A stretch of 22,963 nt of DNA, taken from a virus. The stretch lies in IMG/VR virus record IMGVR_UViG_3300028025_005103, positions 1 through 22,963 of that record. One strand, 5' to 3'. A program made the position numbers and the translations under genes. Shown here in pieces: positions 3,237 through 22,963 of this stretch. Position 1 is the first letter of the stretch. Every line of letters begins with the position of its first letter. The notes under the pieces were generated by a model. That model was not told the DNA's origin. It did no database searches and saw only the letters and a program-made list of their open reading frames with translations.

Positions 3237-3785
3237 TTAGGGGGTAAGTTGCTCGAAACCTGCGAGGTTGAAGTTGGGGTGTTTTAGTACTTCGCCGGCA
3301 GCTTTGTCTAGCATCTCTTGGACTGCTTGAGGGCCGTACCAGGTGTTTGCAGCGAGATCAGATAGAAACTCTGCATCGGTGATTGCGTTGTATGCCAGCG
3401 AAACTACTAGGCGCTGCCAAAACTCTGACTCGATCGGTATCAGCCCATGATCGAGCCACATCAGTACCGTTTCTGATTCTGAAATTTTGTAATCAATTTC
3501 GTGGTTTGGCATCATCTTTGCCTCGAGCTGCAATAGCTCATCTGCCTCTTTTAGGTCAAAAAGAGTGTTGTCGATGAAGTTCCAGTATGCCCATGCGCGC
3601 GAGTAGTAGTTATCTTTGATTACTTCGCCCTCGCGTTGCACATTGATTACTTGCGCGACTACTAGGCCATGATCATCTTTGAATGGTTTGACTGGTGTGT
3701 AGATGGTGAAACCCTGTATGTAATCGGGGTTGTTGAAGATGTGCGGTCTGCCGAGCACTGACTCGATGTGTGCCATGATTCCCAT
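3237..3785 (-). CDS. Unknown protein encoded against the tail operon (moron-like)
   Basis: A 182-residue protein with no family I recognise. It is soluble-looking and acidic in its middle part, with no signal peptide, membrane segment, Cys motif or nucleotide-binding motif. Visible pieces include GRPHIFNNPDYIQGFTIYTP, SRAWAYWNFIDNTLFDLKEADELLQLEAKM and, toward the end, a helical region with Trp residues (EFWQRLVVSLAYNA, NTWYGPQAVQEML). The gene lies on the minus strand between chaperone and gp10-like genes, a place where siphoviruses normally have no gene, and has its own promoter and terminator: the signature of a moron. The start could be ATG 3785 or ATG 3776, because both follow a GGGAATC repeat; the AGATAGGGA site fits the first slightly better. 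Confidence 0.7.
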   Translation of the reverse strand: MGIMAHIESVLGRPHIFNNPDYIQGFTIYTPVKPFKDDHGLVVAQVINVQREGEVIKDNYYSRAWAYWNFIDNTLFDLKEADELLQLEAKMMPNHEIDYKISESETVLMWLDHGLIPIESEFWQRLVVSLAYNAITDAEFLSDLAANTWYGPQAVQEMLDKAAGEVLKHPNFNLAGFEQLTP

Positions 3786-10542: not shown

Positions 10543-10833
10543 ATGACTTCAAATAACATCAAAAGCCGTCTAAGAGCCGTATACGGCGTTTTAGGGGCTA
10601 TTGCGTGGCGTGGGTTTGGGCTATTCCTGTTTATTTTGGGTGCATCGGCTGGTACTGGCGCTGTTGTGGTCGGTAACTGGATGACCGGCGTTCTTATCGC
10701 GTGGGCCACTTTGATGCTGGGCGTGATTGGCGCGATTGGTTATGCCATTGCGACTACTGGCGCGGCGACTGAAGAAACCGTTGCCAGGGCGACTCAGGAT
10801 GCTGTTCAGAAAGCCAACGAAACTAAGAAATAA
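10543..10833 (+). CDS. Holin-like membrane protein
   Basis: A 96-residue protein preceded by AAAGGGG. Two hydrophobic segments lie at about residues 23-45 (GFGLFLFILGASAGTGAVVV) and 49-70 (TGVLIAWATLMLGVIGAIGY), with a charged, helical C-terminal tail (EETVARATQDAVQKANETKK). Size, two membrane spans, charged tail and position right after the endolysin are typical of actinophage holins, which form the membrane lesion that lets the endolysin through. Its last 11 bases overlap the end of the convergent whiB gene. Confidence 0.65.
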   Translation: MTSNNIKSRLRAVYGVLGAIAWRGFGLFLFILGASAGTGAVVVGNWMTGVLIAWATLMLGVIGAIGYAIATTGAATEETVARATQDAVQKANETKK

Positions 10834-11059
10834 GCCGGCCGCGATCTTCGGGCGATAATCCGCCATAGATTCCAAACGGCTCGGCAGCCATGATGCCATA
10901 GTTGCGACATTGCTCGACAACCGGGCAGGTCTTACAAAGCTCTTTCGCTATTTTCTCGGCCATGCGCTGCATGATGCTATCTGGCTGATCTTCGGGAAAG
11001 AATAGATCGGGCGACTGTTCGCAGGGTACACCGCCAGGCGTTTCCAGCACTAGTTCCAT
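10823..11059 (-). CDS. whiB: WhiB-family iron-sulfur regulator
   Basis: A 78-residue protein if ATG 11059 is used; GTG 11101 would add 14 residues and might be leaderless. The WhiB signature is complete: a first Cys followed by SPDLFFPE, then CKTCPVVEQC (C-x2-C-x5-C) and FGIYGGLSPEDRGRL, the G-[IV]-[WY]-G-G turn plus basic end. The four Cys hold a 4Fe-4S cluster, and the protein binds sigma factor or DNA. Phage WhiB proteins such as TM4 gp49 can interfere with host septation and exclude superinfecting phage. It lies alone on the minus strand between the lysis and replication blocks, convergent with the holin gene and divergent from the exonuclease gene. The long open frame up to 11350 is not the gene. 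Confidence 0.85.
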   Translation of the reverse strand: MELVLETPGGVPCEQSPDLFFPEDQPDSIMQRMAEKIAKELCKTCPVVEQCRNYGIMAAEPFGIYGGLSPEDRGRLIS

Positions 11060-11132
11060 CAGGCGGTCTTTCGCATTCTGCGTTTGTCGGTGGTCTTGCA
11101 CATAATTAGGGTACTCAATGAAAGGGTATTTT

Positions 11133-12005
11133 ATGGCAAAACTATTAGGCAACTTTGAGTCGGGTTCGGCTGAGTGGTTGGCGTTGCGTGAGGGCGAGGC
11201 TGTTGTTACTGGCACGCTCGCCGGCATTGTTTGTGGGTGGTCGCAATGGGAATCGCCGTTTACTGCGTGGGCTAAAGCAACCGGCAGGATTCCGAGCGAG
11301 GTCAAACAGTCGCTTGCGATGCGTTTCGGCCAGGTGTTTGAGTCGGGCATAAAGCAGGTTTGGTCTGAGTTGAATCCTGAGTTTGTGATTCATGATGATG
11401 TTGGCACTTTCGCGCATGACGATCATGATTGGGCTAGAGCTAACCCGGATGGGTTGCTAACTTACCCTGATGGTTCGATGGGTGTACTCGAGATCAAGAC
11501 GGCGCGTGTGCCGTTTGATGAAGTGCCGTTGAATTATCGGGCGCAGGTGTTGTGGTATTGCTGGGTGATGGGTTTGCGTAAAGCAAAACTGGTGGCCCTT
11601 TTCAGCGGCAACGATCTCAAAGAGTTCGACATTGAGTTTGATGATTTTGAGTTTGCTGGAATGTTGAGCGCGGTTGAGCGTTGGCGTAAGTGTGTGTTGG
11701 ATGATGTGAAACCTGAGTGGGATGGGTCTGCTAATACTCTCGAAACGGTGAAGTTTCTGAATCCTGGCGTGGCCGATTCGGGTGTTGATTTGGGTGATTT
11801 GGGCATAAGTGTACAAAATGCACAATCGGAGTTTGATGAGGCTCAGACTCACCTGAATGAGATGAAGTCGCGCACGCTTGATGCGTTGGGTGATTCTAAG
11901 TACGGTTATGTTGAAGTCAGCGGCGAGCAGTATGTTGTTTGCACTCGGGCCGTAAACCGTAATGGCGTGGTTTCTTTGAGTATCAAGAAAGGTAAAAATG
12001 TCTAA
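11133..12005 (+). CDS. YqaJ-like PD-(D/E)XK recombination exonuclease
   Basis: A 290-residue protein starting at ATG 11133, seven bases after AAAGGG (ATG 11118 is upstream of that site). The N-terminal WLALREGEAVVTGTLAGIV resembles the R-x-x-x-[IV]-T-[AG]-[ST] entry of YqaJ/lambda Exo proteins. Key residues: Glu70 (GQVFE), Asp106 (ANPDGLL), and Glu120 with Lys122 (VLEIKTA), the PD-(D/E)XK set, followed by YRAQVLWYCWVMG, the Q-x-x-x-Y-x-x-V-x-G helix. Such enzymes degrade one strand of double-stranded DNA for single-strand annealing. An annealase-like gene follows two genes later, so this is one half of a Red-like system. It is the first gene of the replication operon. Confidence 0.8.
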   Translation: MAKLLGNFESGSAEWLALREGEAVVTGTLAGIVCGWSQWESPFTAWAKATGRIPSEVKQSLAMRFGQVFESGIKQVWSELNPEFVIHDDVGTFAHDDHDWARANPDGLLTYPDGSMGVLEIKTARVPFDEVPLNYRAQVLWYCWVMGLRKAKLVALFSGNDLKEFDIEFDDFEFAGMLSAVERWRKCVLDDVKPEWDGSANTLETVKFLNPGVADSGVDLGDLGISVQNAQSEFDEAQTHLNEMKSRTLDALGDSKYGYVEVSGEQYVVCTRAVNRNGVVSLSIKKGKNV

Positions 12006-12213
12006 CATTACTGAGCAGATGGTGAATCTGGTTGGGGAGTTGCAGAAAGCGTTGAGCGCACAGTTGCAGCTCAATGAGTTGATGCGTAAGCGCATCGAGA
12101 AGTTAGAGAATCACGCGGTTATGACCGGTGATGCGGTGTTGAAACTTATCAAGGATCAGCATGGCGCTGATAAGTGCGGTAGGCATTGTGCATGTAAAGC
12201 TGGTGAGATGTAA
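11998..12213 (+). CDS. Small coiled-coil protein with Cys/His tail, unknown
   Basis: A 71-residue protein between the exonuclease and annealase genes, overlapping both (ATGTCTAA before, TAATG after) and preceded by AAAGG. Most of it is an amphipathic helix (VNLVGELQKALSAQLQLNEL, KRIEKLENH). The C-terminal region carries DKCGRHCACKAGEM, three Cys and a His close together that could bind a metal. I do not recognise the family. Its position inside a two-gene recombination module suggests a helper of one of the partners, but this is only contextual. Confidence 0.55.
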   Translation: MSNITEQMVNLVGELQKALSAQLQLNELMRKRIEKLENHAVMTGDAVLKLIKDQHGADKCGRHCACKAGEM

Positions 12214-12773
12214 TGGCATCTTTCAACCTGGCTGATTATGAAACGGTCGAGCAGCGCATAAAGCGTTTCTACACCGATAACCCGAATGGCCGCATCATCA
12301 CTAAAAACAAAACATCGCCAACCGATAGGGCCGTTTCGACTTGGGTTGTGAAAGCTGAGATTTGGTTGCCGTTCGAGAATCCCGAGCTTGAGAAAGTCAA
12401 TTTCTCTAAGATGCCTGGTGCATACCTAAAAGCGACCGGCTGGGCGTTTGAGATTGACGGTCAGGGCATGGCTAACAAAACATCGGCGCTCGAGAATGCT
12501 GAAACTAGCGCCATCGGGCGTGCGTTGGCTAATGCTGGCTATTCGGGCAACAAGCGTGCCTCGCGTGAGGAAATGGCTAAGGTCGCCAAACAAACCGACA
12601 TAACCGACATAACCGACAAGAAACGCGACTGGCTGGGTGAGGCCGACAAACTAGCATTGACTTATGATGTTGATGGTTTGCGGTTGCTCTACACCGATGC
12701 GGTGGCTGCCAACGCTGGGCCGAAGATTTTAGAGAAAATCAAAGCCTATGGATCAGAAGTTGCCAAACCTTAA
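12213..12773 (+). CDS. ERF-like single-strand DNA annealing protein
   Basis: A 186-residue protein coupled to the upstream gene by TAATG. The hallmark is the segment ENAETSAIGRALANAGYSG, matching the E-T-S-A-x-G-R-A-L-A-x-x-G motif of ERF-superfamily annealases and their phage relatives; before it lies AEIWLPF and ATGWAFEIDGQGMANK, likely the beta sheet of the ring fold. The family forms rings that anneal complementary single strands, here together with the YqaJ-like exonuclease. The linker holds a Thr-Asp-Ile repeat encoded by a small tandem repeat, and the C-terminal part (about residues 145-186) looks like a separate helical bundle. I prefer ERF to RecT because of the motif. Confidence 0.65.
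   Translation: MASFNLADYETVEQRIKRFYTDNPNGRIITKNKTSPTDRAVSTWVVKAEIWLPFENPELEKVNFSKMPGAYLKATGWAFEIDGQGMANKTSALENAETSAIGRALANAGYSGNKRASREEMAKVAKQTDITDITDKKRDWLGEADKLALTYDVDGLRLLYTDAVAANAGPKILEKIKAYGSEVAKP
12594..12618 (+). repeat. 9-bp tandem repeat inside the annealase gene
   Basis: ACCGACATA occurs twice in tandem followed by a partial third unit (ACCGACA), encoding TDITDITDK in the linker of the annealase. In-frame 9-bp units can vary in number by replication slippage without breaking the gene. Confidence 0.5.
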
Positions 12774-15874: not shown

Positions 15875-15884
15875 TGTTGGGCCG

Positions 15885-16154
15885 ATGGAAGAAAACCAAG
15901 TGCAATGCCGTAAGTGCGGCTTTATTTGGGTTGTTGTGCCTAAGAAAAAACACCTGGCTCAATACTGTGCCAGTTGCCGGGCTAAACCAGCAAAGATGGT
16001 GAAATACAATGGCGAGATTTGTGTACCGTTTCATGGCAAATTTGACCGCTTTGATCGGCCCATTGTTGATGGCGTTCTTTTCATGCCTGGTGATCGTATT
16101 TGTAATCATTCCGACTGTGTTGCTCAGGCTCACATTGTCGGTGGCAATAAATAG
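15885..16154 (+). CDS. Zinc-binding HNH-related protein, paralogue A
   Basis: An 89-residue protein starting at ATG 15885; the long open frame to 15750 lies inside the helicase gene and is not used. It has CRKCGF and YCASCRA (two C-x2-C pairs), then ICVPFHGKFDRFDRPI and PGDRICNHSDCVAQAHI. The second half matches a leftward gene at 17341-17739 in the order C-x-P-x-x-G-x-x-D, P-G-x-R-[LI]-C-x-x-S-D-C-x-x-x-x-H-I. The Cys and His placement resembles treble-clef/HNH folds, but the complete HNH triad cannot be confirmed. It lies between helicase and SSB genes, so a replication-associated DNA-binding role is possible. Confidence 0.55.
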   Translation: MEENQVQCRKCGFIWVVVPKKKHLAQYCASCRAKPAKMVKYNGEICVPFHGKFDRFDRPIVDGVLFMPGDRICNHSDCVAQAHIVGGNK

Positions 16155-16185: not shown

Positions 16186-16542
16186 ATGGCTAAAAATCTA
16201 TTAGTAACAATTACTGGCTACGCTGGCGAGGTCAAGGAATCAAAGGCCGGGCAGTATGTGGTCATCCCTGTACCGGTAAATCGCAAGAATGATGCCGGCG
16301 AATGGGAAACCATCGAAAAGCATTACTTCAATGTTGCCCTCGATGATCTGGGCCTGGTGAAAGATAATCTTTACAAGATCACCGGTGAGCTGAAGATTAG
16401 CAAGTGGAAAAACGATGCTGGCGAAACTCAGGTTTCTTTCTGGGTCACTAAAGCAACCGCTGAGCGACTAGCGAAAGCCGGCAACCCTAGCGCAACTAAC
16501 GGCGCTGATCTACTCTCTGGCTTTGGCGCGACACCGTTCTAA
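16186..16542 (+). CDS. Single-stranded DNA-binding (SSB-like) protein
   Basis: A 118-residue protein with AAAAGGTGA before the ATG. The first 90 residues alternate as an OB fold (NLLVTITGYAGEVKES, YVVIPVPVNRKN, HYFNVALDDLG, NLYKITGELKISKW, TQVSFWVTKATAERL). The short Gly/Ala/Ser linker ends LLSGFGATPF, and a terminal aromatic after Pro echoes the C-terminal tip by which SSBs recruit partner proteins, although the acidic residues of the classical tip are missing. Position after DnaB supports the role. From residue 50 onward the gene is duplicated, in inverted orientation, at the right edge of the window. Confidence 0.6.
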   Translation: MAKNLLVTITGYAGEVKESKAGQYVVIPVPVNRKNDAGEWETIEKHYFNVALDDLGLVKDNLYKITGELKISKWKNDAGETQVSFWVTKATAERLAKAGNPSATNGADLLSGFGATPF

Positions 16543-16631
16543 TGGTCAAGATAACTGTTTTACTGTTCTTCATCGCCAACGCGATTTTCATGTGGTTGTC
16601 GGTGGATAACGCGGCGTTGCCTATCCCGGTG
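16333..16631 (+). repeat. Inverted repeat, left copy (SSB tail plus start of membrane gene)
   Basis: These 299 bases recur as the reverse complement of 22665-22963. By eye the copies differ at 8 positions: seven silent changes (for example GCC/GCG, GGC/GGT, CTG/TTG, AAC/AAT, GCG/GCA) and one Val/Ile change. The match reaches the window's right edge, so the true repeat may be longer. Coding-neutral differences mean both versions evolved as functional genes rather than arising from sequencing error. Confidence 0.9.
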
Positions 16632-16652
16632 TTCTTCGTGGTGTTTCTGTAG
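16542..16652 (+). pseudogene. Small membrane protein, shortened left copy
   Basis: Starts at the ATG of TAATG at the end of the SSB-like gene. It gives 36 residues: MVKITVLLFFIANAIFMWLS, VDNAALPIPV, then FFVVFL and stop. The right-edge copy has the same first 30 residues but continues to 53 residues with a second hydrophobic stretch. Here the protein ends in TAG just after nucleotide identity is lost, so it is probably a truncated or recombinant version. Whether the short form works cannot be told. It lies just before the convergence point at 16.65-16.70 kb. Confidence 0.5.
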
Positions 16653-16695
16653 GAATTGACCCACTCCGGGTTGATGCCGGCGGGGGATAGGGGGA
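16653..16695. other. Junction between convergent blocks, with G-rich tract
   Basis: This short gap separates the rightward replication operon from the leftward block. It holds GACCCACTCCGGGTTG (a weak 4-bp stem) and CCGGCGGGGGATAGGGGG, a G-run block unlike the rest of the window. GC-rich homopolymer tracts beside an HNH gene are often found near actinophage cos ends. It is also where the inverted-repeat rearrangement must have its left breakpoint. Confidence 0.35.
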
Positions 16696-17019
16696 TTAGT
16701 TGAGTGGTTTGTTACCGCGTTGGCCGTTGCATGACCGGTGTGCGGCTTTCAGCTCGCTGGTCGCGCTGCCAGGCTCGATGTGATCGGCCTCGAACGGGTC
16801 ATTGAATCTTGGGCCGTCACCGCATAGATGGCAGACGGTTGCCATTGCTCTTACTTGAGCGGCGCGCTTACGGTAGTCGCCTGAGTATTGACCGGTTTGT
16901 TTTTTGATGAGATCGCGTTTGATGTTGTGAAGTTTGTCTTCGATGGCTTGATGGTAGTCACAAAGATTACCTAGTGAGAGATTGCCACAAACCCTGCATG
17001 GTTTCGGGAATCGGCCCAT
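16696..17019 (-). CDS. HNH endonuclease
   Basis: A 107-residue protein with a full HNH layout: CRVCG at the start and CHLCGDGPR (zinc pair), then FEADHIEPGS (the D-H of the first catalytic segment), HRSCNGQRGNK, the N-G-x-R-G end. The region between contains a basic helix with IKRDLIKKQTGQYSGDYRKRA. HNH proteins of this type sit beside cos and the terminase genes in many actinophages and siphoviruses, where they help genome cutting during packaging. Here the gene is the last of the leftward block and terminase is not in view. Its ATG overlaps the TGA of the FmdB gene. Confidence 0.8.
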   Translation of the reverse strand: MGRFPKPCRVCGNLSLGNLCDYHQAIEDKLHNIKRDLIKKQTGQYSGDYRKRAAQVRAMATVCHLCGDGPRFNDPFEADHIEPGSATSELKAAHRSCNGQRGNKPLN

Positions 17020-17204
17020 CAGCCGTTGCCCTTATCGGTGGTATAGAAACCTTTACCTTTGAAAGTTATTGCGACACCGCCCAACACCTGGTGCATGGGG
17101 GATAGACATTCAGGGCATTCGACTACGGCCGGCTCATCCTCATGGATTGAGCGAACGGTTTGCATGGTGTGACCGTTGCCACATCGATACTCATACAGCG
17201 GCAT
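17019..17204 (-). CDS. FmdB-family zinc ribbon protein
   Basis: A 61-residue protein with the complete FmdB signature: MPLYEYRCGNGH at the start, VECPECLSPM (the second Cys pair), and AITFKGKGFYTTDKG at the end. The family is widespread in bacteria and in actinophages; the first member was called a regulator, but the biochemical role is not established. The four Cys/His ligands for zinc are present (C8, H12 area; CPEC). It overlaps the HNH gene by one base (TGATG), so the two are co-translated; a nucleic-acid-related role beside the nuclease is plausible only by context. Confidence 0.8.
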   Translation of the reverse strand: MPLYEYRCGNGHTMQTVRSIHEDEPAVVECPECLSPMHQVLGGVAITFKGKGFYTTDKGNG

Positions 17205-17206
17205 GG

Positions 17207-17323
17207 TTACTTAGATACTCGCTTAGCAAACTCTTTGATTGCTACAGCCTCACGCTCAGCACCCAGTTTCATCAGCTCAATGTAATAAGCGTTTAGCGCC
17301 TCGAGTAGTTGTTTAGCATCCAT
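17207..17323 (-). CDS. Small helical protein, 38 residues, unknown
   Basis: A short frame filling the gap between FmdB and the zinc gene: MDAKQLLEALNAYYIELMKL followed by GAEREAVAIKEFAKRVSK. The whole protein can form one or two amphipathic helices with alternating charge. AAGAAAGAAAAG precedes the ATG. Two bases separate its stop from the FmdB start. Similar very short helical proteins are common in this leftward block. I do not recognise the family. Confidence 0.55.
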   Translation of the reverse strand: MDAKQLLEALNAYYIELMKLGAEREAVAIKEFAKRVSK

Positions 17324-17340
17324 TCTTTTCTTTCTTTGGC

Positions 17341-17739
17341 CTAGCCTCTACCTACTCGGCAAATTCTGCACTCACAGTTGAGGCCATCGCGTTTCTTACG
17401 ATCGATACCAAAAGCCTCTAACGGTTTCGGCTGGCCGCATCGTGAGCATTCTTTAGTAACGGTATCCGTTATTGCGCTCTCGATGTGATCCAGGTTGATG
17501 CAGTCCGAGTATCCACATAGCCTAACGCCGGGCCGGTACAACTCACCGAGCCTAGTGAGCGGCCGGTAGTCATCATCCAACTCGCCCTGATGTGGCTCAC
17601 AAATACCGTAATCGGTTGTGAGCTTAGTTTTCTTAGCCGCCCGGCATTCCTGGCATCCCCAAAGATCGCGACCGCGTTTAGCCCTTTGTTGCGCCGTATC
17701 ATCTTTCATCGCGCAACCGCAACGCGCACACTCAGCCAT
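17341..17739 (-). CDS. Zinc-binding HNH-related protein, paralogue B (two zinc modules)
   Basis: A 132-residue protein with four Cys pairs. N-terminal part: CARCGCAMK and CQECRAAKK. Middle: GICEPHQGELDDDYRP then YRPGVRLCGYSDCINLDHI, which parallels the gene at 15885-16154. C-terminal part: CSRCGQPKPLEAFGIDRKK and CECRICRVGRG, the zinc module often found in phage and bacterial HNH proteins (C-x2-C-x3-K-x-L-x-x-F with a later C-x-C-x2-C). It differs from paralogue A by this extra module. Probably a nucleic-acid-binding or nuclease-related protein. The start overlaps the previous gene (TAATG). Confidence 0.6.
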   Translation of the reverse strand: MAECARCGCAMKDDTAQQRAKRGRDLWGCQECRAAKKTKLTTDYGICEPHQGELDDDYRPLTRLGELYRPGVRLCGYSDCINLDHIESAITDTVTKECSRCGQPKPLEAFGIDRKKRDGLNCECRICRVGRG

Positions 17740-17975
17740 TAGTGCTTACCGTTGATAAGAGCAATAGCAACACATTGTGCGCAGTTGTCGTGCGATTTGT
17801 AAGTTTCGCCCATGCCTCTATCAATCACTTCAACATTGTGATTCGGGTAGCGTTCAACAAAAGCCGTAATAAGGCGTTCGCGTTCATCATTCACACCAAT
17901 CTGCCTACCAGCGCAAACGGCGCAGTTACCGCAATACTCGCTATGCAATTCGATGCTTACAACTCGATTAGCCAT
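17739..17975 (-). CDS. Small Cys-rich protein, unknown
   Basis: A 78-residue protein with CGNCAVCAG near residues 15-23 and NCAQC near residue 65: several Cys spaced for a zinc or iron site, with His residues between (LHSEYC, NHNVEV, KSHDNC). It also contains DERERLITAFVERYPNHNVE, similar to the E-R-x-R-[IL]-I helix shared by other small proteins of this block, and ends AIALINGKH. Its start overlaps the end of the NlpC/P60 gene. Function unknown. Confidence 0.5.
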   Translation of the reverse strand: MANRVVSIELHSEYCGNCAVCAGRQIGVNDERERLITAFVERYPNHNVEVIDRGMGETYKSHDNCAQCVAIALINGKH

Positions 17976-18498
17976 TTGTACTCACTCTCACAAATCTCAT
18001 CTTTGTATTCTTTACGCTGGCCGAACCTAAGTCAAGTATCGAAGTTGTTTGGCCGCGCTTGAACCCAGCGTGAATAACTTTGTTGTTGCCGATGTAGATG
18101 CTGGCATGAAAGAAAGTATTGCTACCTGGATAGCCGAATAACACCAGGTCGCCTATTGCCGGCGATGAAACCTTTACACCTGAGCGCGCTTGCTTATTCG
18201 CTGAGTGAGGCAACTCAACACCGATCTGCTCATAAGCCCAACGGGTTAGGCCCGAGCAATCCCAGCCTCGAGGTGTCGAACCGCTAAACACATACCAGGT
18301 TTTGCCGATGCGTTTCTTGAGCTGCTTGACTACCTTAGCCATGCGAAACTCTTGAGCATCTTGCATAACGATGGTCATGAAATCAGGGTTTGTTTTTACG
18401 ATGGCCTGTGGCGCTGATGTCTGCGCGGCCGTTGCCGATGATGTGCATCCGGCGAGAATAGCCCCCAAAGTTGTGAGAGCAATTAGTTGTTTCTTCAT
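17968..18498 (-). CDS. NlpC/P60 peptidase-like lipoprotein
   Basis: A 176-residue protein. Residues 1-18 form a lipoprotein signal peptide: KKQ, a hydrophobic core, then LAGC with the lipidated Cys18. After a Ser/Ala/Thr linker, residues 55-176 form an NlpC/P60 domain: RGWDCSGLTRWAYEQIG with catalytic Cys81, VELPHSANKQ, GDLVLF, FFHASIYIG with His131, and VIHAG with His143. The domain cleaves D-gamma-glutamyl-diaminopimelate bonds in peptidoglycan. A membrane-anchored, exported wall enzyme in a phage is unusual: it would act from outside the membrane without holin. Possible roles are superinfection exclusion, wall remodelling or lysis help. GAAAGG lies upstream of the ATG. Confidence 0.8.
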   Translation of the reverse strand: MKKQLIALTTLGAILAGCTSSATAAQTSAPQAIVKTNPDFMTIVMQDAQEFRMAKVVKQLKKRIGKTWYVFSGSTPRGWDCSGLTRWAYEQIGVELPHSANKQARSGVKVSSPAIGDLVLFGYPGSNTFFHASIYIGNNKVIHAGFKRGQTTSILDLGSASVKNTKMRFVRVSTNG

Positions 18499-18561
18499 TT
18501 AGCCACTTACCTTTCTTGAGGTTAGTTGGGTGGTTTATTGTCGAACGATATTCAGTTTTAG

Positions 18562-18640
18562 TGGATCATCAGGGAATCGAACCCTGCTCTGACGGATGCG
18601 CCTGAGCGCCTTGACCGGCATCGAAACCAGATTATGACCC
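18562..18640 (-). other. tRNA-like element
   Basis: On the minus strand, GGGTCAT and ATGATCC form a 7-bp acceptor stem (one G-U), with A as discriminator. Directly inside the 3' side is a perfect T-arm: CAGGG, loop TTCGATT, CCCTG. On the 5' side CTGG and CCGG frame an 8-base loop where a D-arm belongs. The remaining part, CTCAGGCG-CATC-CGTCAGAG, folds as a long hairpin with one A-A mismatch and a 4-base loop, not as a canonical anticodon arm with seven-base loop. So two arms are tRNA-perfect and one is not; a decayed tRNA, a tRNA mimic or an attachment-site remnant are options. It begins at the last base of the metallophosphoesterase stop codon. Confidence 0.45.
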
Positions 18641-19809
18641 TAGAGCTTGAGAACCGCACCTTGATAGGGAATGCCTTTAGACAATTCTAGGCATGTAATG
18701 CCGCTGGCTGAATCCTCGCCAGAGATGCGCCTGAACCAGCCTGAGCCATTGTCGCTGGTCGAAGTCTGCACCCAGTAGCGCGAACCGCCATTGTGACTTG
18801 CACCAGCCTCGATAACTCTGAGATGGTGAAAATGTGCGGTGAGTAGCAGCGATGCCGATGCGATCGTTTGATTACCGAAAGTGTTTTGTCGCCACCAGGT
18901 AAGAGCATTCTCGGGCCTCGAGTACTGATGCCCATGCGCGATACCTACCAAGTGATAGCCATCACCGAAAGCATCAAACACCAGCGATTCTTCATCAGGG
19001 TTTGGAATCAAGAAAGTTATCGGCAACCCAACCTCTACGGCTAGGCGGCGCACCTGCTGCAGAATCACAATGCCCCAGTCATCCAAGCCAGGCTTACCGA
19101 TCTGCTGGCGATTCACACGCCATTGGCAATGATTAGACCCGATGCTGGCATAAGTTACCGGCGCATACTTTGTGGCCATCTTGAGAAAATCCCAGATAAG
19201 AGCTGATGCCAAATCAACCTGTTGCATAACGCTTAGGTCATTAGTCTGCAACTGATTCATGCTGCTCGCGTTATCGATGCCCTCGATGATGTCGCCTAAG
19301 TCCAGGGCGTAGATGTGCTGATACTTTCCAGCCTTTATTTGAGCCTCGATGCGATCGTAAGATTCCAGGATGCGCTGCACTAGGCTTTCGGTGTTGCCAC
19401 GATAATCGACTTTGCCAACCTGAAAATCTGCCAGGCAGACAACAAATACTTTGTCCGACTGAGTTTGCTTAGTTGCTGGCTTTCTTGTTTTCTTTGCGTT
19501 GGCATACAGCGTTGGCAGATCAGGTACAGACCCGATGCGCTTGCGAAAGTGGAAACGCCACGAAGATAACCATTGAGGCTCGAGTGGAAACGGCCGGGCG
19601 ACCTGCCACCGAGATGTGCGAGGCGTGCCAACAATCTCATACTCATCAGGTGAAAAGCCCTGCTCTTTTAGAAACTCATCAAAGTTTGGCAGCTCATCAT
19701 CGGGGATGGCTGGCAGCGTAGCCGTACCATTAGTGCCATCAAACTCGAGGGCCGGTCGCCAATCTTTCGGCGCATCAATCTTCGGTGCTGGCTGCAGATC
19801 ATCAAGCAT
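18640..19809 (-). CDS. Metallophosphoesterase
   Basis: A 389-residue protein. The first 115 residues are an N-terminal region with PDDELPNFDEFLKEQGFSPD and SSWRFHFRKRIG, as in the actinophage members of this family. The calcineurin-like domain follows with CLADFQVGKVD (D128, Q130), ALDLGDIIEG (D173), IGSNHCQWR in place of the usual G-N-H-D (H227), VGIAHGHQ (H292, H294) and LLTAHFHHLRV (H326, H328). These ligate two metals and cleave phosphodiester or phosphomonoester bonds. The substrate in phages is unknown, nucleic acid being the likely one. The ATG lies in TAATG, coupled to the HTH-like gene, a pairing repeatedly seen in actinophages. Confidence 0.8.
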   Translation of the reverse strand: MLDDLQPAPKIDAPKDWRPALEFDGTNGTATLPAIPDDELPNFDEFLKEQGFSPDEYEIVGTPRTSRWQVARPFPLEPQWLSSWRFHFRKRIGSVPDLPTLYANAKKTRKPATKQTQSDKVFVVCLADFQVGKVDYRGNTESLVQRILESYDRIEAQIKAGKYQHIYALDLGDIIEGIDNASSMNQLQTNDLSVMQQVDLASALIWDFLKMATKYAPVTYASIGSNHCQWRVNRQQIGKPGLDDWGIVILQQVRRLAVEVGLPITFLIPNPDEESLVFDAFGDGYHLVGIAHGHQYSRPENALTWWRQNTFGNQTIASASLLLTAHFHHLRVIEAGASHNGGSRYWVQTSTSDNGSGWFRRISGEDSASGITCLELSKGIPYQGAVLKL

Positions 19810-20039
19810 TAGTTAATCTTCCCACATGAGCATGACCCTTTACGGTGTTGCGCAATCGCACCATCCGAAAGAACCAAGCCACGCTGCTTTAGCGCATTGC
19901 TTAGAGTGCGAGCCGGCCACAAATCGAAAGACTGAATGGCAACCTCGAAAATCTTTTTATCTTTGGCATCCAGCGTTTCCAACACCGAGCGAACCCGGCA
20001 ATTGAAAACTCTCTTAGGCGGCTCTAGTCCATCAAGCAT
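19809..20039 (-). CDS. Small HTH-like protein upstream of the metallophosphoesterase
   Basis: A 76-residue protein with the pattern VRSVLETLDAKDKKIFEVAI, LWPARTLSNALKQRGLVLSD, GAIAQHRKGSCSCGK. The order of a short helix, a L-x-x-A-L-x-x-x-G turn and an A-I-x-x-H-R helix resembles a helix-turn-helix with a Cys-x-Cys end. Such proteins are often found next to the metallophosphoesterase gene in actinophages. It may bind DNA; the regulated target, if any, is not visible. The stop overlaps the next gene. Confidence 0.55.
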   Translation of the reverse strand: MLDGLEPPKRVFNCRVRSVLETLDAKDKKIFEVAIQSFDLWPARTLSNALKQRGLVLSDGAIAQHRKGSCSCGKIN

Positions 20040-20041
20040 CG

Positions 20042-20248
20042 TTACCCTTTCAACGGCTCTAAGTCTGCCAGAGTTTTCGATAGAACCACAACCGTTGGCA
20101 TCGGGTGAGTTTGGCGTGACTCATGCTTGAGAACCTGCGCCAAATCCTGCCGGATGGCCTCAAAGTCATCAGACCACACCAGGTTGTTATCTTTCACCAG
20201 CTCATAGGCTCGAGTCACCATCTCACGATCTGAGCGAATCCAGGTCAT
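20042..20248 (-). CDS. Small protein, 68 residues, unknown
   Basis: Begins MTWIRSDREMVTRAYELVKD and continues LVWSDDFEAIRQDLAQVLKH, then HPMPTVVVLSKTLADLEPLKG. The first 45 residues look like two helices; the end has one possible strand (PTVVVL). No Cys motif or membrane segment. The start overlaps the stop of the 27-residue membrane gene (ATGA) and two bases separate its stop from the HTH-like gene, so it is part of the coupled operon. Family not recognised. Confidence 0.55.
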   Translation of the reverse strand: MTWIRSDREMVTRAYELVKDNNLVWSDDFEAIRQDLAQVLKHESRQTHPMPTVVVLSKTLADLEPLKG

Positions 20249-20328
20249 TCTTCATCCCTCTGCCTCATGTAAGCCACAATAAAAGTGCATACCGCTATCA
20301 GCGCCAAACCCCATAGAAATACATCCAT
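20245..20328 (-). CDS. Very small membrane protein, 27 residues
   Basis: A short frame: MDVFLWGLALIAVCTFIVAY followed by MRQRDEE. It is one hydrophobic segment with an acidic/basic tail, as in phage mini-membrane proteins. Its ATG overlaps the TGA of the upstream gene, and its TGA overlaps the ATG of the downstream gene, so both junctions are four-base couplings. Such exact double coupling is unlikely by chance, which supports reality. Function unknown. Confidence 0.55.
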   Translation of the reverse strand: MDVFLWGLALIAVCTFIVAYMRQRDEE

Positions 20329-20723
20329 CAGTTATCCCTGCCTTTGAGTATGCCCATAACGGCGCTCTCGATCGCGGCATGGGCGTGGCTGCCCTCAGCA
20401 TCGTGAGCTGGCGCGATGCTATCAAAATAGGCTTTCACCGCATCGTAAAGTTTCTCGCGCTCAATCTGTGCAGCTCTAACTTTGTAATCCTCGAGCAACG
20501 CCGGCGACATGGTGAGTTGGCGGTAATCCATGCCCTCATCAATCATCCGGTAAATGTCCACCCAATCCCAGCGCAGATTCAAATCCCAATCTTTCAGGAT
20601 GGCGATGATCCGTTTGCGCTCATGGTCGCGGCCCTTATAGAAACCCTGAGTGTACTCATTGTGATTCTTTTGCGGCTGAAACCAAGCCGGATCAACATCG
20701 CGGCTCATGTGCGGCTCAAGCAT
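20328..20723 (-). CDS. ER-x-RII small-protein family member, 131 residues
   Basis: Starts at ATG 20723 after AAAGGG (a TTG two codons earlier is less likely). Includes YTQGFYKGRDHERKRIIAIL, the motif G-x3-E-R-x-R-I-I shared with neighbours, then DLNLRWDWVDIYRMIDEGMD and a long helical part (LLEDYKVRAAQIEREKLYDA) with an acidic/His stretch near the end. It is the largest of the related proteins in this block. The stretch after the motif may be a dimerisation helix. No enzymatic signature. Function unknown. Confidence 0.6.
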   Translation of the reverse strand: MLEPHMSRDVDPAWFQPQKNHNEYTQGFYKGRDHERKRIIAILKDWDLNLRWDWVDIYRMIDEGMDYRQLTMSPALLEDYKVRAAQIEREKLYDAVKAYFDSIAPAHDAEGSHAHAAIESAVMGILKGRDN

Positions 20724-20814
20724 TGCCAAACCCTTTACGGCGTGAACGGCGCAGACGGCGGCGAACGGCCGCTTTCCTGCGATGCGTTGGCCAAGCGATG
20801 AAGTTGCTAGACAT
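20716..20814 (-). CDS. Very basic 32-residue protein, uncertain
   Basis: An open frame between two neighbouring genes, overlapping both by eight bases. Product: MSSNFIAWPTHRRKAAVRRR followed by LRRSRRKGFGNA, with about twelve Arg/Lys. The frame starts just within the stop region of the upstream gene (ATGTCTAG) and ends within the start of the next (AATGCTTGA). A nucleic-acid-binding peptide is conceivable. The ribosome binding site is weak, and a non-coding spacer is the alternative. Confidence 0.35.
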   Translation of the reverse strand: MSSNFIAWPTHRRKAAVRRRLRRSRRKGFGNA

Positions 20815-21037
20815 TCCCATTTAGTGCCTCTTTCTGCAGTCGGGTTATTAGCTCGCGCAAGTCATAACATTTGCCACCATGATGCGAGCAGCGCCCATCA
20901 TCATCGGCTAGGGCATCAAAACAAATCCTGCGCTCGATTAGGTCAATGATTCGCTTACGCTCAAATTCTTCGCCTTGTCGAGCTGCCCTTGTTATGGCTT
21001 GCCAAACTTCAGGCGTGTAACTGGCTTTTTCGGTCAT
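20807..21037 (-). CDS. ER-x-RII small-protein family member with Cys/His motif
   Basis: A 76-residue protein coupled by ATGA to the upstream gene. It contains QAITRAARQGEEFERKRIID, the shared G-x3-E-R-x-R-I-I motif, followed by LIERRICFDALADDDGRCSH and HGGKCYDLRELITRLQKEAL. The RCSHHGGKC piece with an earlier Cys gives a possible zinc site. The first half is predicted helical. Together with three or four similar proteins nearby it forms a local paralogous family. Function unknown. Confidence 0.6.
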   Translation of the reverse strand: MTEKASYTPEVWQAITRAARQGEEFERKRIIDLIERRICFDALADDDGRCSHHGGKCYDLRELITRLQKEALNGNV

Positions 21038-21249
21038 TTGTTTTCTTTCTCTAACATGGCAATGGCCAGGCGAAACCCGACCGCCACCTGCATGTAGTTT
21101 TCAATCGTGTTTTCTTCAGGGCCTCTCAGCCAGTTGAAATACTCAACATTGTCTGCATCGGTAAGCAACTTGATTAGGCGCTGGCGCTCACGCACTTCGC
21201 CCTGCTTACGGTAAAACTCGCGAACCGGCTCACCATGCGGATCAATCAT
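21034..21249 (-). CDS. ER-x-RII small-protein family member, 71 residues
   Basis: Start chosen at ATG 21249, seven bases after GAGGAG; the open frame up to 21360 lies inside the neighbouring gene. It contains EPVREFYRKQGEVRERQRLI, the shared motif, then KLLTDADNVEYFNWLRG and a final helix (MQVAVGFRLAIAMLEKENK). Overlaps its upstream neighbour by eight bases and its downstream neighbour by four. No Cys, no membrane segment. Function unknown. Confidence 0.6.
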   Translation of the reverse strand: MIDPHGEPVREFYRKQGEVRERQRLIKLLTDADNVEYFNWLRGPEENTIENYMQVAVGFRLAIAMLEKENK

Positions 21250-21475
21250 CCACAAACTCCTCACCCTTGATAAGCGCAATACATTGAGCAACCACGCGCC
21301 CACGCGCTGTAGACCGCTTAGCATTACACTCGCGGCGAAACATGTCCAGTTGGCGCACAATGCGAGTTTCAGTCACAACCGCAACACGATCAAGCTCTTT
21401 AGCGTAATTCATCTTGCCAGCCTCAATACCCAAAAGGTAAGCCTGGCGCACATCAGGTTTCGTTAGGTCAATCAC
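21242..21475 (-). CDS. Small helical protein, 77 residues, unknown
   Basis: Start at GTG 21475 in a GTGA overlap with the previous stop. Sequence begins MIDLTKPDVRQAYLLGIEAG and continues with AKELDRVAVVTETRIVRQLD and RGRVVAQCIALIKGEEFVDD. The first part (QAYLLGIEAG...) is similar in position to the [AY]-x-x-G helix of the neighbouring ER-x-RII proteins but the motif itself is absent or diverged. It looks like two long helices. Function unknown. Confidence 0.55.
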   Translation of the reverse strand: MIDLTKPDVRQAYLLGIEAGKMNYAKELDRVAVVTETRIVRQLDMFRRECNAKRSTARGRVVAQCIALIKGEEFVDD

Positions 21476-21663
21476 TTCAAACCACCGCGCAAACGCTCAA
21501 TGATGAGATCGAGTCCAGGTTTAGCCGGGTGCAACTGCATCGACTCAAGAAACTTGATAATGCGCTGCTCGCACTCCAACTGGCCCATCTCATAGGCGGT
21601 GTTAGATGCCTCGCGAACAGCCAGCGACACTTGCTCATAAGTGAAAGTAGTTTCAGTAGCCAT
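21472..21663 (-). CDS. ER-x-RII small-protein family member, 63 residues
   Basis: Begins MATETTFTYEQVSLAVREAS and has NTAYEMGQLECEQRIIKFLE, the shared helix with the first Arg replaced by Cys-Glu (G-x-x-E-C-E-x-R-I-I). It ends with LIIERLRGGLK. The start overlaps the upstream stop (TGATG), and its stop overlaps the next start (GTGA). Purely helical by appearance, soluble. Function unknown. Confidence 0.6.
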   Translation of the reverse strand: MATETTFTYEQVSLAVREASNTAYEMGQLECEQRIIKFLESMQLHPAKPGLDLIIERLRGGLK

Positions 21664-21845
21664 CAGCGGTTTCTCTTAGCTCTCGATGATCGCATTGAGT
21701 GAATCTGAGCTGCGAAAAGAAATACGCCAATACCGATTAGGCCAATCGCGCCAACTACCGGCGCAAATCCGTTATCGCCCAACCAAAGAGCCAGACCCAT
21801 AACAACGGTCATGCCCACAATCATTAGTACATCGGTGATTTTCAT
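21663..21845 (-). CDS. Small membrane protein with two spans
   Basis: A 60-residue protein. Two hydrophobic segments are visible: VLMIVGMTVVMGLALWLGDN and APVVGAIGLIGIGVFLFAAQ, followed by a basic tail (RSSRAKRNR), so the C-terminus is likely cytoplasmic. Coupled to both neighbours (TAATG, TGATG). Could be an early membrane protein such as an exclusion or host-takeover factor; holin-like function is less likely because the lysis cassette has its own holin. Family unknown. Confidence 0.6.
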   Translation of the reverse strand: MKITDVLMIVGMTVVMGLALWLGDNGFAPVVGAIGLIGIGVFLFAAQIHSMRSSRAKRNR

Positions 21846-22039
21846 TACGCGGCCACCTGCTCTTTTGCATCCTCTAGGTGATCTAGTTTGATGTAGCGTG
21901 CCTCTGCGCGAACCTTTGCAATGCTCGAAGTGTAAATGTTTGTCTTGCTAACTGAATTGTAAAAACCACAGCTGCAGCGAATCTCATAAGTGTTTTCATA
22001 ACTTAGGCTTTTTGCCACCGTCACTTTGTGCTTGTTCAT
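21845..22039 (-). CDS. Small protein with Cys-Ser-Cys motif, first gene of the leftward operon
   Basis: A 64-residue protein: MNKHKVTVAKSLSYENTYEI, RCSCGFYNSVSKTNIYTSSI, then AKVRAEARYIKLDHLEDAKE. The C-x-C-G turn followed by a helix with a late His (HLEDA) recurs in small actinophage proteins and might bind a metal. It is the first gene after the promoter at 22080-22108, with a leader of about 34 bases ending in AGAAAGATAGG. It should be the best-expressed gene of the set. Function unknown. Confidence 0.6.
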   Translation of the reverse strand: MNKHKVTVAKSLSYENTYEIRCSCGFYNSVSKTNIYTSSIAKVRAEARYIKLDHLEDAKEQVAA

Positions 22040-22079
22040 TTTGTCCTATCTTTCTGCCGGCCCTATACCGACAAAACCC

Positions 22080-22108
22080 AGATTAGACACAAAATAGGCT
22101 CGAGTCAA
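22080..22108 (-). promoter_or_regulatory. Leftward promoter for the small-gene operon
   Basis: On the minus strand TTGACT (22108-22103) and TAATCT (22085-22080) are separated by exactly 17 bases: five and four or five of six consensus positions. The transcript would start near 22073 and run through the coupled genes from 22039 downward. The leader contains CCGGCAGAAAGATAGG, almost identical to the leader of the moron-like gene at 3785. A CTCGAG sequence overlaps the -35 box. Confidence 0.7.
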
Positions 22109-22131
22109 ACATTTACACGCCCTAAAATCAA

Positions 22132-22149
22132 GCCGTTATCTAACCGTTA
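22132..22149 (-). repeat. TAACGG-N5-TAACGG tandem motif, copy 2
   Basis: The minus strand reads TAACGGTTAGATAACGGC, overlapping the stop codon of the RusA gene and lying 23 bases upstream of the -35 box of the leftward promoter. It matches the copy at 3875-3892 at 16 of 18 bases. Likely a regulator binding site shared by the two leftward promoters. Confidence 0.4.
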
Positions 22150-22596
22150 CAAACGCCACAATTCGATGGTCGCGCCTGGCTCGGGCTTAGTTGTCGGGCC
22201 GCACCAGACCTTTTCAGCCTGAATCTTCACAATCAAGGCATCATCGGCCAACAGGCCGCCGATCGTGAGCGCATCGCCCACCGCGCGAATGTAATGATCC
22301 AGGTCGGGTTTGCCACCTGGATAAACTTTCCACTTTGGCTGCTTAGGTCGCTCAAGAAAGAAAGTCATCCGAACCTTGACCGGCTCAACAAACTTCGACA
22401 CATCCTCAGTATCGGCAAACAGTTTCTTGACCGCCAAAATAATGTCTGCGCGCCACGCCGGTAGATGCTTGCTCGCCTCAACCATTACAGCTCGCTTACC
22501 AATCACATAAGCGTTTTTAGACCCTTGCGGCGCTGGCCGGCCATCCACAAATAACAACGCATGTGAACGGCCCGACTCAACAACCTCAACCATCAT
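22147..22596 (-). CDS. rusA: RusA-like Holliday junction resolvase
   Basis: A 149-residue protein. The N-terminus has LLFVDGRPAPQGSKNAYVIG, the P-x-P-Q-G-S-K motif of phage RusA proteins, and later KPDLDHYIRAVGDALTIGGL followed by ADDALIV. The acidic residues Asp98, Asp100, Asp108 and Asp118/119 correspond to the catalytic Asp set of RusA dimers, which nick symmetric junctions in branched DNA before packaging. Its ATG overlaps the stop of the membrane-protein gene (ATGA). Position directly after SSB and the small membrane gene suggests a replication/recombination role. Confidence 0.85.
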   Translation of the reverse strand: MMVEVVESGRSHALLFVDGRPAPQGSKNAYVIGKRAVMVEASKHLPAWRADIILAVKKLFADTEDVSKFVEPVKVRMTFFLERPKQPKWKVYPGGKPDLDHYIRAVGDALTIGGLLADDALIVKIQAEKVWCGPTTKPEPGATIELWRL

Positions 22597-22754
22597 CGAG
22601 CCTTAGCCAGAAAACCTGCAGCGGTGAAAATGTTTAGCGCCAACAACAAAAACGCCAAGAACCTCACCGGGATAGGCAACGCCGCGTTATCCACCGACAA
22701 CCACATGAAAATTGCGTTGGCGATGAAGAACAGTAAAACCGTTATCTTGACCAT
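22593..22754 (-). CDS. Small membrane protein, full-length right copy
   Basis: A 53-residue protein: MVKITVLLFFIANAIFMWLS, VDNAALPIPVRFLAFLLLAL, NIFTAAGFLAKAR. Two hydrophobic segments separated by a short polar turn. Coupled to SSB on one side (TAATG) and to RusA on the other (ATGA). The first 30 residues are also encoded at 16542-16652, but that copy stops at residue 36. The intact couplings identify this as the ancestral arrangement. Confidence 0.6.
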   Translation of the reverse strand: MVKITVLLFFIANAIFMWLSVDNAALPIPVRFLAFLLLALNIFTAAGFLAKAR

Positions 22755-22963
22755 TAGAACGGTGTCGCGCCAAAGCCAGAGAGTAGATCAGCGCCATTAG
22801 TTGCGCTAGGGTTGCCGGCTTTCGCTAGTCGCTCAGCGGTTGCTTTAGTGACCCAGAAAGAAACCTGAGTTTCGCCAGCATCGTTTTTCCACTTGCTAAT
22901 CTTCAGCTCGCCGGTGATCTTGTAAAGATTATCTTTCACCAAACCCAGATCATCGAGCGCAAT
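22665..22963 (-). repeat. Inverted repeat, right copy
   Basis: Reverse complement of 16333-16631 with eight differences. It runs to the last base of the window. Its left boundary lies inside the small membrane gene: identity ends after the codons for PIPV. See the left copy for the nature of the differences. Confidence 0.9.
22754..22963 (-). CDS. SSB-like protein, partial right copy
   Basis: The last 69 residues of a second SSB-like gene, cut by the window edge. Apart from one Val/Ile difference at the very first visible residue, it encodes the same protein as residues 50-118 of the gene at 16186-16542, down to the LLSGFGATPF end, despite several silent changes. It is followed by the intact small membrane gene and RusA. 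Its upstream part and its promoter are outside the window. Confidence 0.85.
   Translation of the reverse strand: MALDDLGLVKDNLYKITGELKISKWKNDAGETQVSFWVTKATAERLAKAGNPSATNGADLLSGFGATPF

Follow-up and report, generated by a model that had tools for sequence, protein, structure and literature searches.

The 22,963-nucleotide stretch analysed here (hereafter the window; positions 1 to 22,963 of IMG/VR virus record IMGVR_UViG_3300028025_005103) is very probably a chimera produced by an in-vitro or assembly route, as judged from the assembled sequence. The inverted repeat at its right-hand side is almost certainly an artefact of a false join rather than a biological unit: with the right arm joined backwards to an upstream point, one locus is seen twice. 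In this scenario, positions 1 to about 16632 would hold the left and middle portions of a linear actinobacterial cos phage genome of roughly 31 kb, a relative of Pontimonas phage phiPsal1, and the sequence from 16633 would be the right arm of a sister strain, read backwards from its physical cos end to the gene for the single-stranded DNA-binding protein (SSB). Judging from the contig ends of relatives, the inverted arm breaks exactly where the virion DNA physically ends on the right, a point that the original prediction had missed.

The inverted repeat and the gene order of relatives

Comparison of the window with itself recovered the 299-bp inverted repeat of the original prediction, with 16333-16631 matching 22665-22963 at eight mismatches and no gaps. 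Seven of the mismatches are synonymous and one, at 16333, is a GTT/ATT (Val/Ile) difference; six lie in the SSB gene and two in the membrane gene. Past the repeat, weaker similarity extends to 16650/22646 (13 of 18 further bases). The description of the two copies also held. The window ends within the right copy, where SSB, the 53-aa membrane protein and RusA are coupled without gaps, their starts and stops overlapping. In the left copy the membrane gene is cut: its ORF matches the complete version for 30 codons and then enters foreign sequence, where it terminates after codon 36. The GC skew of the window is positive to about 17 kb and mostly negative beyond, a change of sign that is expected if the right arm is inverted.

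Relatives were gathered by RusA and SSB searches of IMG/VR and range from about 96% identity downward. Ten contigs have both arms (L020, L021, L003, L005, L006, L007, L010, L011, L012 and L015), and in all ten the order SSB, membrane protein, RusA, further genes, phosphoesterase and HNH lies on one strand. The right arm is thus on the strand of the replication/SSB arm in each of them, and reversed in the window alone; in three further contigs (L013, L022 and L023) the left arm and RusA share one strand. This single-strand order implies that all window sequence to the right of 16632 is inverted. It also bears out the operon that had been expected (SSB, membrane protein, RusA, small genes, HNH, leading to the terminase), including the proposed check that RusA should follow SSB on the same strand. 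Aligned with its nearest relative, G001 (31,388 bases), the window covers 8264 to about 25,711 and then jumps to 31,381, from where it proceeds in reverse to 25,395. The membrane-gene site and the terminus, about 5.7 kb apart in G001, are joined in inverted orientation in the window.

Table 1. Coordinates of the features discussed, in positions of the window.
Feature	Position	Strand	Basis or remark
YqaJ/RecE-type exonuclease	11118-12005		Library matches (Pfam/PHROG scan)
Putative annealing protein	12213-12773		Assigned by eye; sole library matches are families without known function
SSB, complete, 118 aa	16186-16542	+	Named in the original prediction and by position relative to phiPsal1; no match in Pfam or PHROG
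Left repeat copy: SSB C-terminal part and membrane-gene codons 1-30	16333-16632	+	
Predicted false junction, membrane gene to right physical genome end	16629-16632		Shared GTG, or GGTG counting the first overhang base
Right terminus of virion DNA (right half of cos)	16629-16650	-	Reads ACAGAAACACCACGAAGAACAC-3' on the minus strand; contig ends of relatives
Right arm of phage genome, reversed relative to all relatives	16633-22963	-	
HNH endonuclease, adjoins cos in relatives	16696-17019	-	phrog_338; Pfam HNH slightly under cut-off
Phosphoesterase/exonuclease	18640-19809	-	phrog_284
RusA-like Holliday junction resolvase	22147-22596	-	Pfam PF05866, phrog_140
Small membrane protein, complete, 53 aa	22593-22754	-	
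Right repeat copy, running to contig end	22664-22963	-	

Several other genes of the window may be recorded here. Two cysteine-rich proteins, at 15879-16154 (+) directly upstream of SSB and at 17341-17739 (-) in the right arm, are paralogues (38% over 58 aa). Upstream of the neck and tail genes, 188-1287 holds glycosyltransferase-like and cytidylyltransferase-like genes, recognized by eye; by eye and position, the glycosyltransferases of phiPsal1 occupy the same place. The C-terminal part of a minus-strand ORF at 10823-11350 appears WhiB-like by eye, and phiPsal1 also encodes a WhiB protein. A 182-aa minus-strand ORF (3237-3785) lies within the rightward tail gene cluster, a region of which much is conserved in G001.

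The physical end of the genome

The sequence at the junction end of the inverted arm reads ...ACAGAAACACCACGAAGAACAC-3' on its own strand, and six relatives' contigs stop at the same base (...GAACAC). The contigs L021/L028, L007/L087, L010/L100 and L027/L096 stop exactly there, L021 with a one-base variant upstream (CACCGAGAACAC). In L020/L024/L081 and L006 the terminus base is followed by AGATCGG and AGATCGGAA, which we take to be the start of the standard Illumina adapter. An adapter directly after the terminus base implies that the DNA molecule ended at that point.

Five contigs run through the terminus (L025/L092, L003/L026, L080, L085 and L091). They continue with CCCGGCCCTG or CCCGACCTCA and then with CTTTTTCATAC or a close variant, the left genome end. 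On the left, G001, G002 and G004 each have CTTTT as their very first bases (left ends read CTTTTTC or CTTTTGC), and terminase ORFs follow. The 10 nt between the right and left ends are present in the run-through contigs only. Fixed ends on both sides, with the intervening bases confined to joined forms, are the pattern of a cos phage. The 10 bases, absent from both ends and present in the joined forms, point to a cos site whose 3' overhang of 10 nt would have been lost in end repair; the polarity is deduced from that loss. A search of bacterial genomes for the joined cos sequence did not find it. In a more distant group, contigs end at ...TATCAC and the run-through reads CCCGACC.

Including the window, 12 sequences carry this terminus: six stop there, five run into the cos sequence, and the window alone joins an internal gene. 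For a 31-kb genome, the chance that a random breakpoint would fall within a few bases of the terminus is of the order of 1 in 10,000.

The join and its possible origins

The membrane-gene sequence of the right copy is CCCGGTGAGGTTCTTGGCGTTTTTGT; in the left copy it gives way after CCCGGTG to that of the terminus, TTCTTCGTGGTGTTTCTGT. The two sides of the join have GTG in common (3 nt), or GGTG (4 nt) if the first overhang base is counted. An ungapped alignment of the membrane-gene site with the final 22 nt of the terminus gives 16 identical positions of 22. When the roughly 45,800 registers of both strands of the window's own sequence (i.e., the genome minus its left 8 kb) are ranked by their identity, without gaps, to the final 18-24 nt, this site comes first or second, the match length having been chosen after the junction was known. 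At 12-15 nt its rank is unremarkable; when the comparison is confined to the 613 registers with an initial GTG, the site takes first place for the majority of lengths. The duplex energy at the site is good (rank 12 of 614), a weaker support than the identity ranks. This similarity fits mispriming of the terminal 3' end at the membrane-gene site.

We suspect that the right terminus lost its 10-nt overhang, and that its free 3' end then annealed to the partly complementary membrane-gene site and was extended, and consider this the probable route. The extension would have taken place during multiple displacement amplification (MDA) or another in-vitro polymerase step. Such reads would then have been accepted by the assembler, a possible reason being that strain variation had interrupted the correct path.

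A chimera could also have formed by random ligation of an end-repaired terminal fragment during library making, without annealing. Phage DNA is rich in terminal fragments, and at the join the terminus is intact with its overhang removed, like the other end contigs. Ligation would, however, make a coincidence of both the shared bases and the top-ranking similarity over 18-24 nt (about 2 in 45,800 registers, for a length picked afterwards), and we regard it as rather unlikely. A literature search on library end-repair chimeras returned nothing directly relevant.

Two strains contributed to the window. Pairwise comparison of the repeat in its left, right and L020 versions gives 6-10 differing bases, and the left and right copies are about as divergent from each other as either is from L020. 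Given that the differences between left and right are mostly silent, polymerase error is not their cause; the arms were apparently supplied by two co-occurring sister strains, or mixed by the assembler. The presence of two strains points to linkage of separate molecules, or to a mosaic made by the assembler, more than to the simple fold-back of one molecule.

This bears on the possibility that the window represents real, rearranged phage DNA, in which, during replication, phage recombination proteins annealed a resected cos end to the membrane-gene site and primed copying yielded a defective snap-back genome. A YqaJ/RecE-type exonuclease is encoded, the similarity at the join is of the annealing type, and a DNA end is the expected substrate for such a reaction. 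However, the candidate annealing protein was assigned by eye, and its library matches have no known function. Only half a cos lies at the join, so cutting and packaging of the product would be impossible at that point. The join is in no other contig, and the copies come from two strains, which snap-back of a single molecule would not yield. We therefore think such an origin very improbable, and a population of defective snap-back genomes in infected cells, made by the phage annealing system and possibly between co-infecting strains, slightly more so.

The original prediction offered an inversion, a duplication and a chimera (of two strains or from amplification) and inclined to the last; the chimera is supported and an active inversion is not. 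An invertible segment, or homologous inversion between the repeats with both orientations in the population, could account for inverted repeats that flank about 6 kb and retain coding sequence in both copies. But the relatives show a single orientation (the 10 contigs and phiPsal1), none of 104 other loci has a comparable inverted repeat, and one boundary is a physical genome end. If the segment were flipped, the right terminus would abut a reversed SSB and membrane gene instead of the left half-cos that it meets in relatives. The scan of proteins with Pfam and PHROG turned up no site-specific recombinase. On the gene order of the relatives and the location of the cos we reject an invertible element, the chance of which we put close to nil. 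An old duplication was likewise rejected, as the truncated copy lacks decay (both differences in the 91 nt of the membrane gene are silent, a short stretch) and the relatives have no such inverted copy.

Self-comparison of 105 sequences gave only one inverted repeat of 299 bp, that of the window, and the window junction 22-mer is in no other IMG/VR contig. The one other inverted repeat is a 63-bp fold-back at the end of a relative's contig, L055 (2811-2873 / 3290-3352), with 6 nt, ACAGTC, common at its join, apparently another inverted chimera.

From the perspective of virus catalogues, this reading removes a false inversion from a catalogued contig. In metagenomes, true phage genome ends are marked by adapter remnants and by contigs that share an end, and chimeras may form at such ends. 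The inferred cos, with its 10-nt 3' overhang and neighbouring HNH gene, is also a useful annotation for an uncultured actinophage group.

Comparison with known systems

The nearest named phage is phiPsal1 (MG835450), which was detected in a culture of Pontimonas salivibrio, at low copy, and was described as lytic (PMC6106888). Its gene order in both arms is that of the IMG/VR relatives, among them those of freshwater type (3300032335_000855 and others). It has an HNH-like sequence beside its genome end and a comparable cos region, and its large terminase is 57% identical to that of L025. Both phiPsal1 and the IMG/VR relatives differ from the window in that they lack the inverted repeat and have the right arm in normal orientation.

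With respect to the join, the closest likeness is to the inverted chimeras of MDA. In one study 85% of amplification chimeras were inverted, and inverted joins of less than 10 kb, the main type, had complementarity of 2-21 nt in 93.5% of cases (PMC1855051). In another, overlaps of 3-13 nt accounted for more than 95% of chimeras and the distances were mostly below 5 kb, compared with about 5.7 kb here (PMC5372508). The window has inverted segments within 10 kb of each other (by the G001 distance) and complementarity within the 2-21 nt range (GTG/GGTG), in addition to the imperfect 22-nt match. The likeness rests on the orientation, distance and complementarity of the join. In the chimeras of Lasken and Stockwell 2007 (PMC1855051) a displaced strand is joined at a random position, whereas in the window the joined end is a natural cos terminus and the arms come from two strains.
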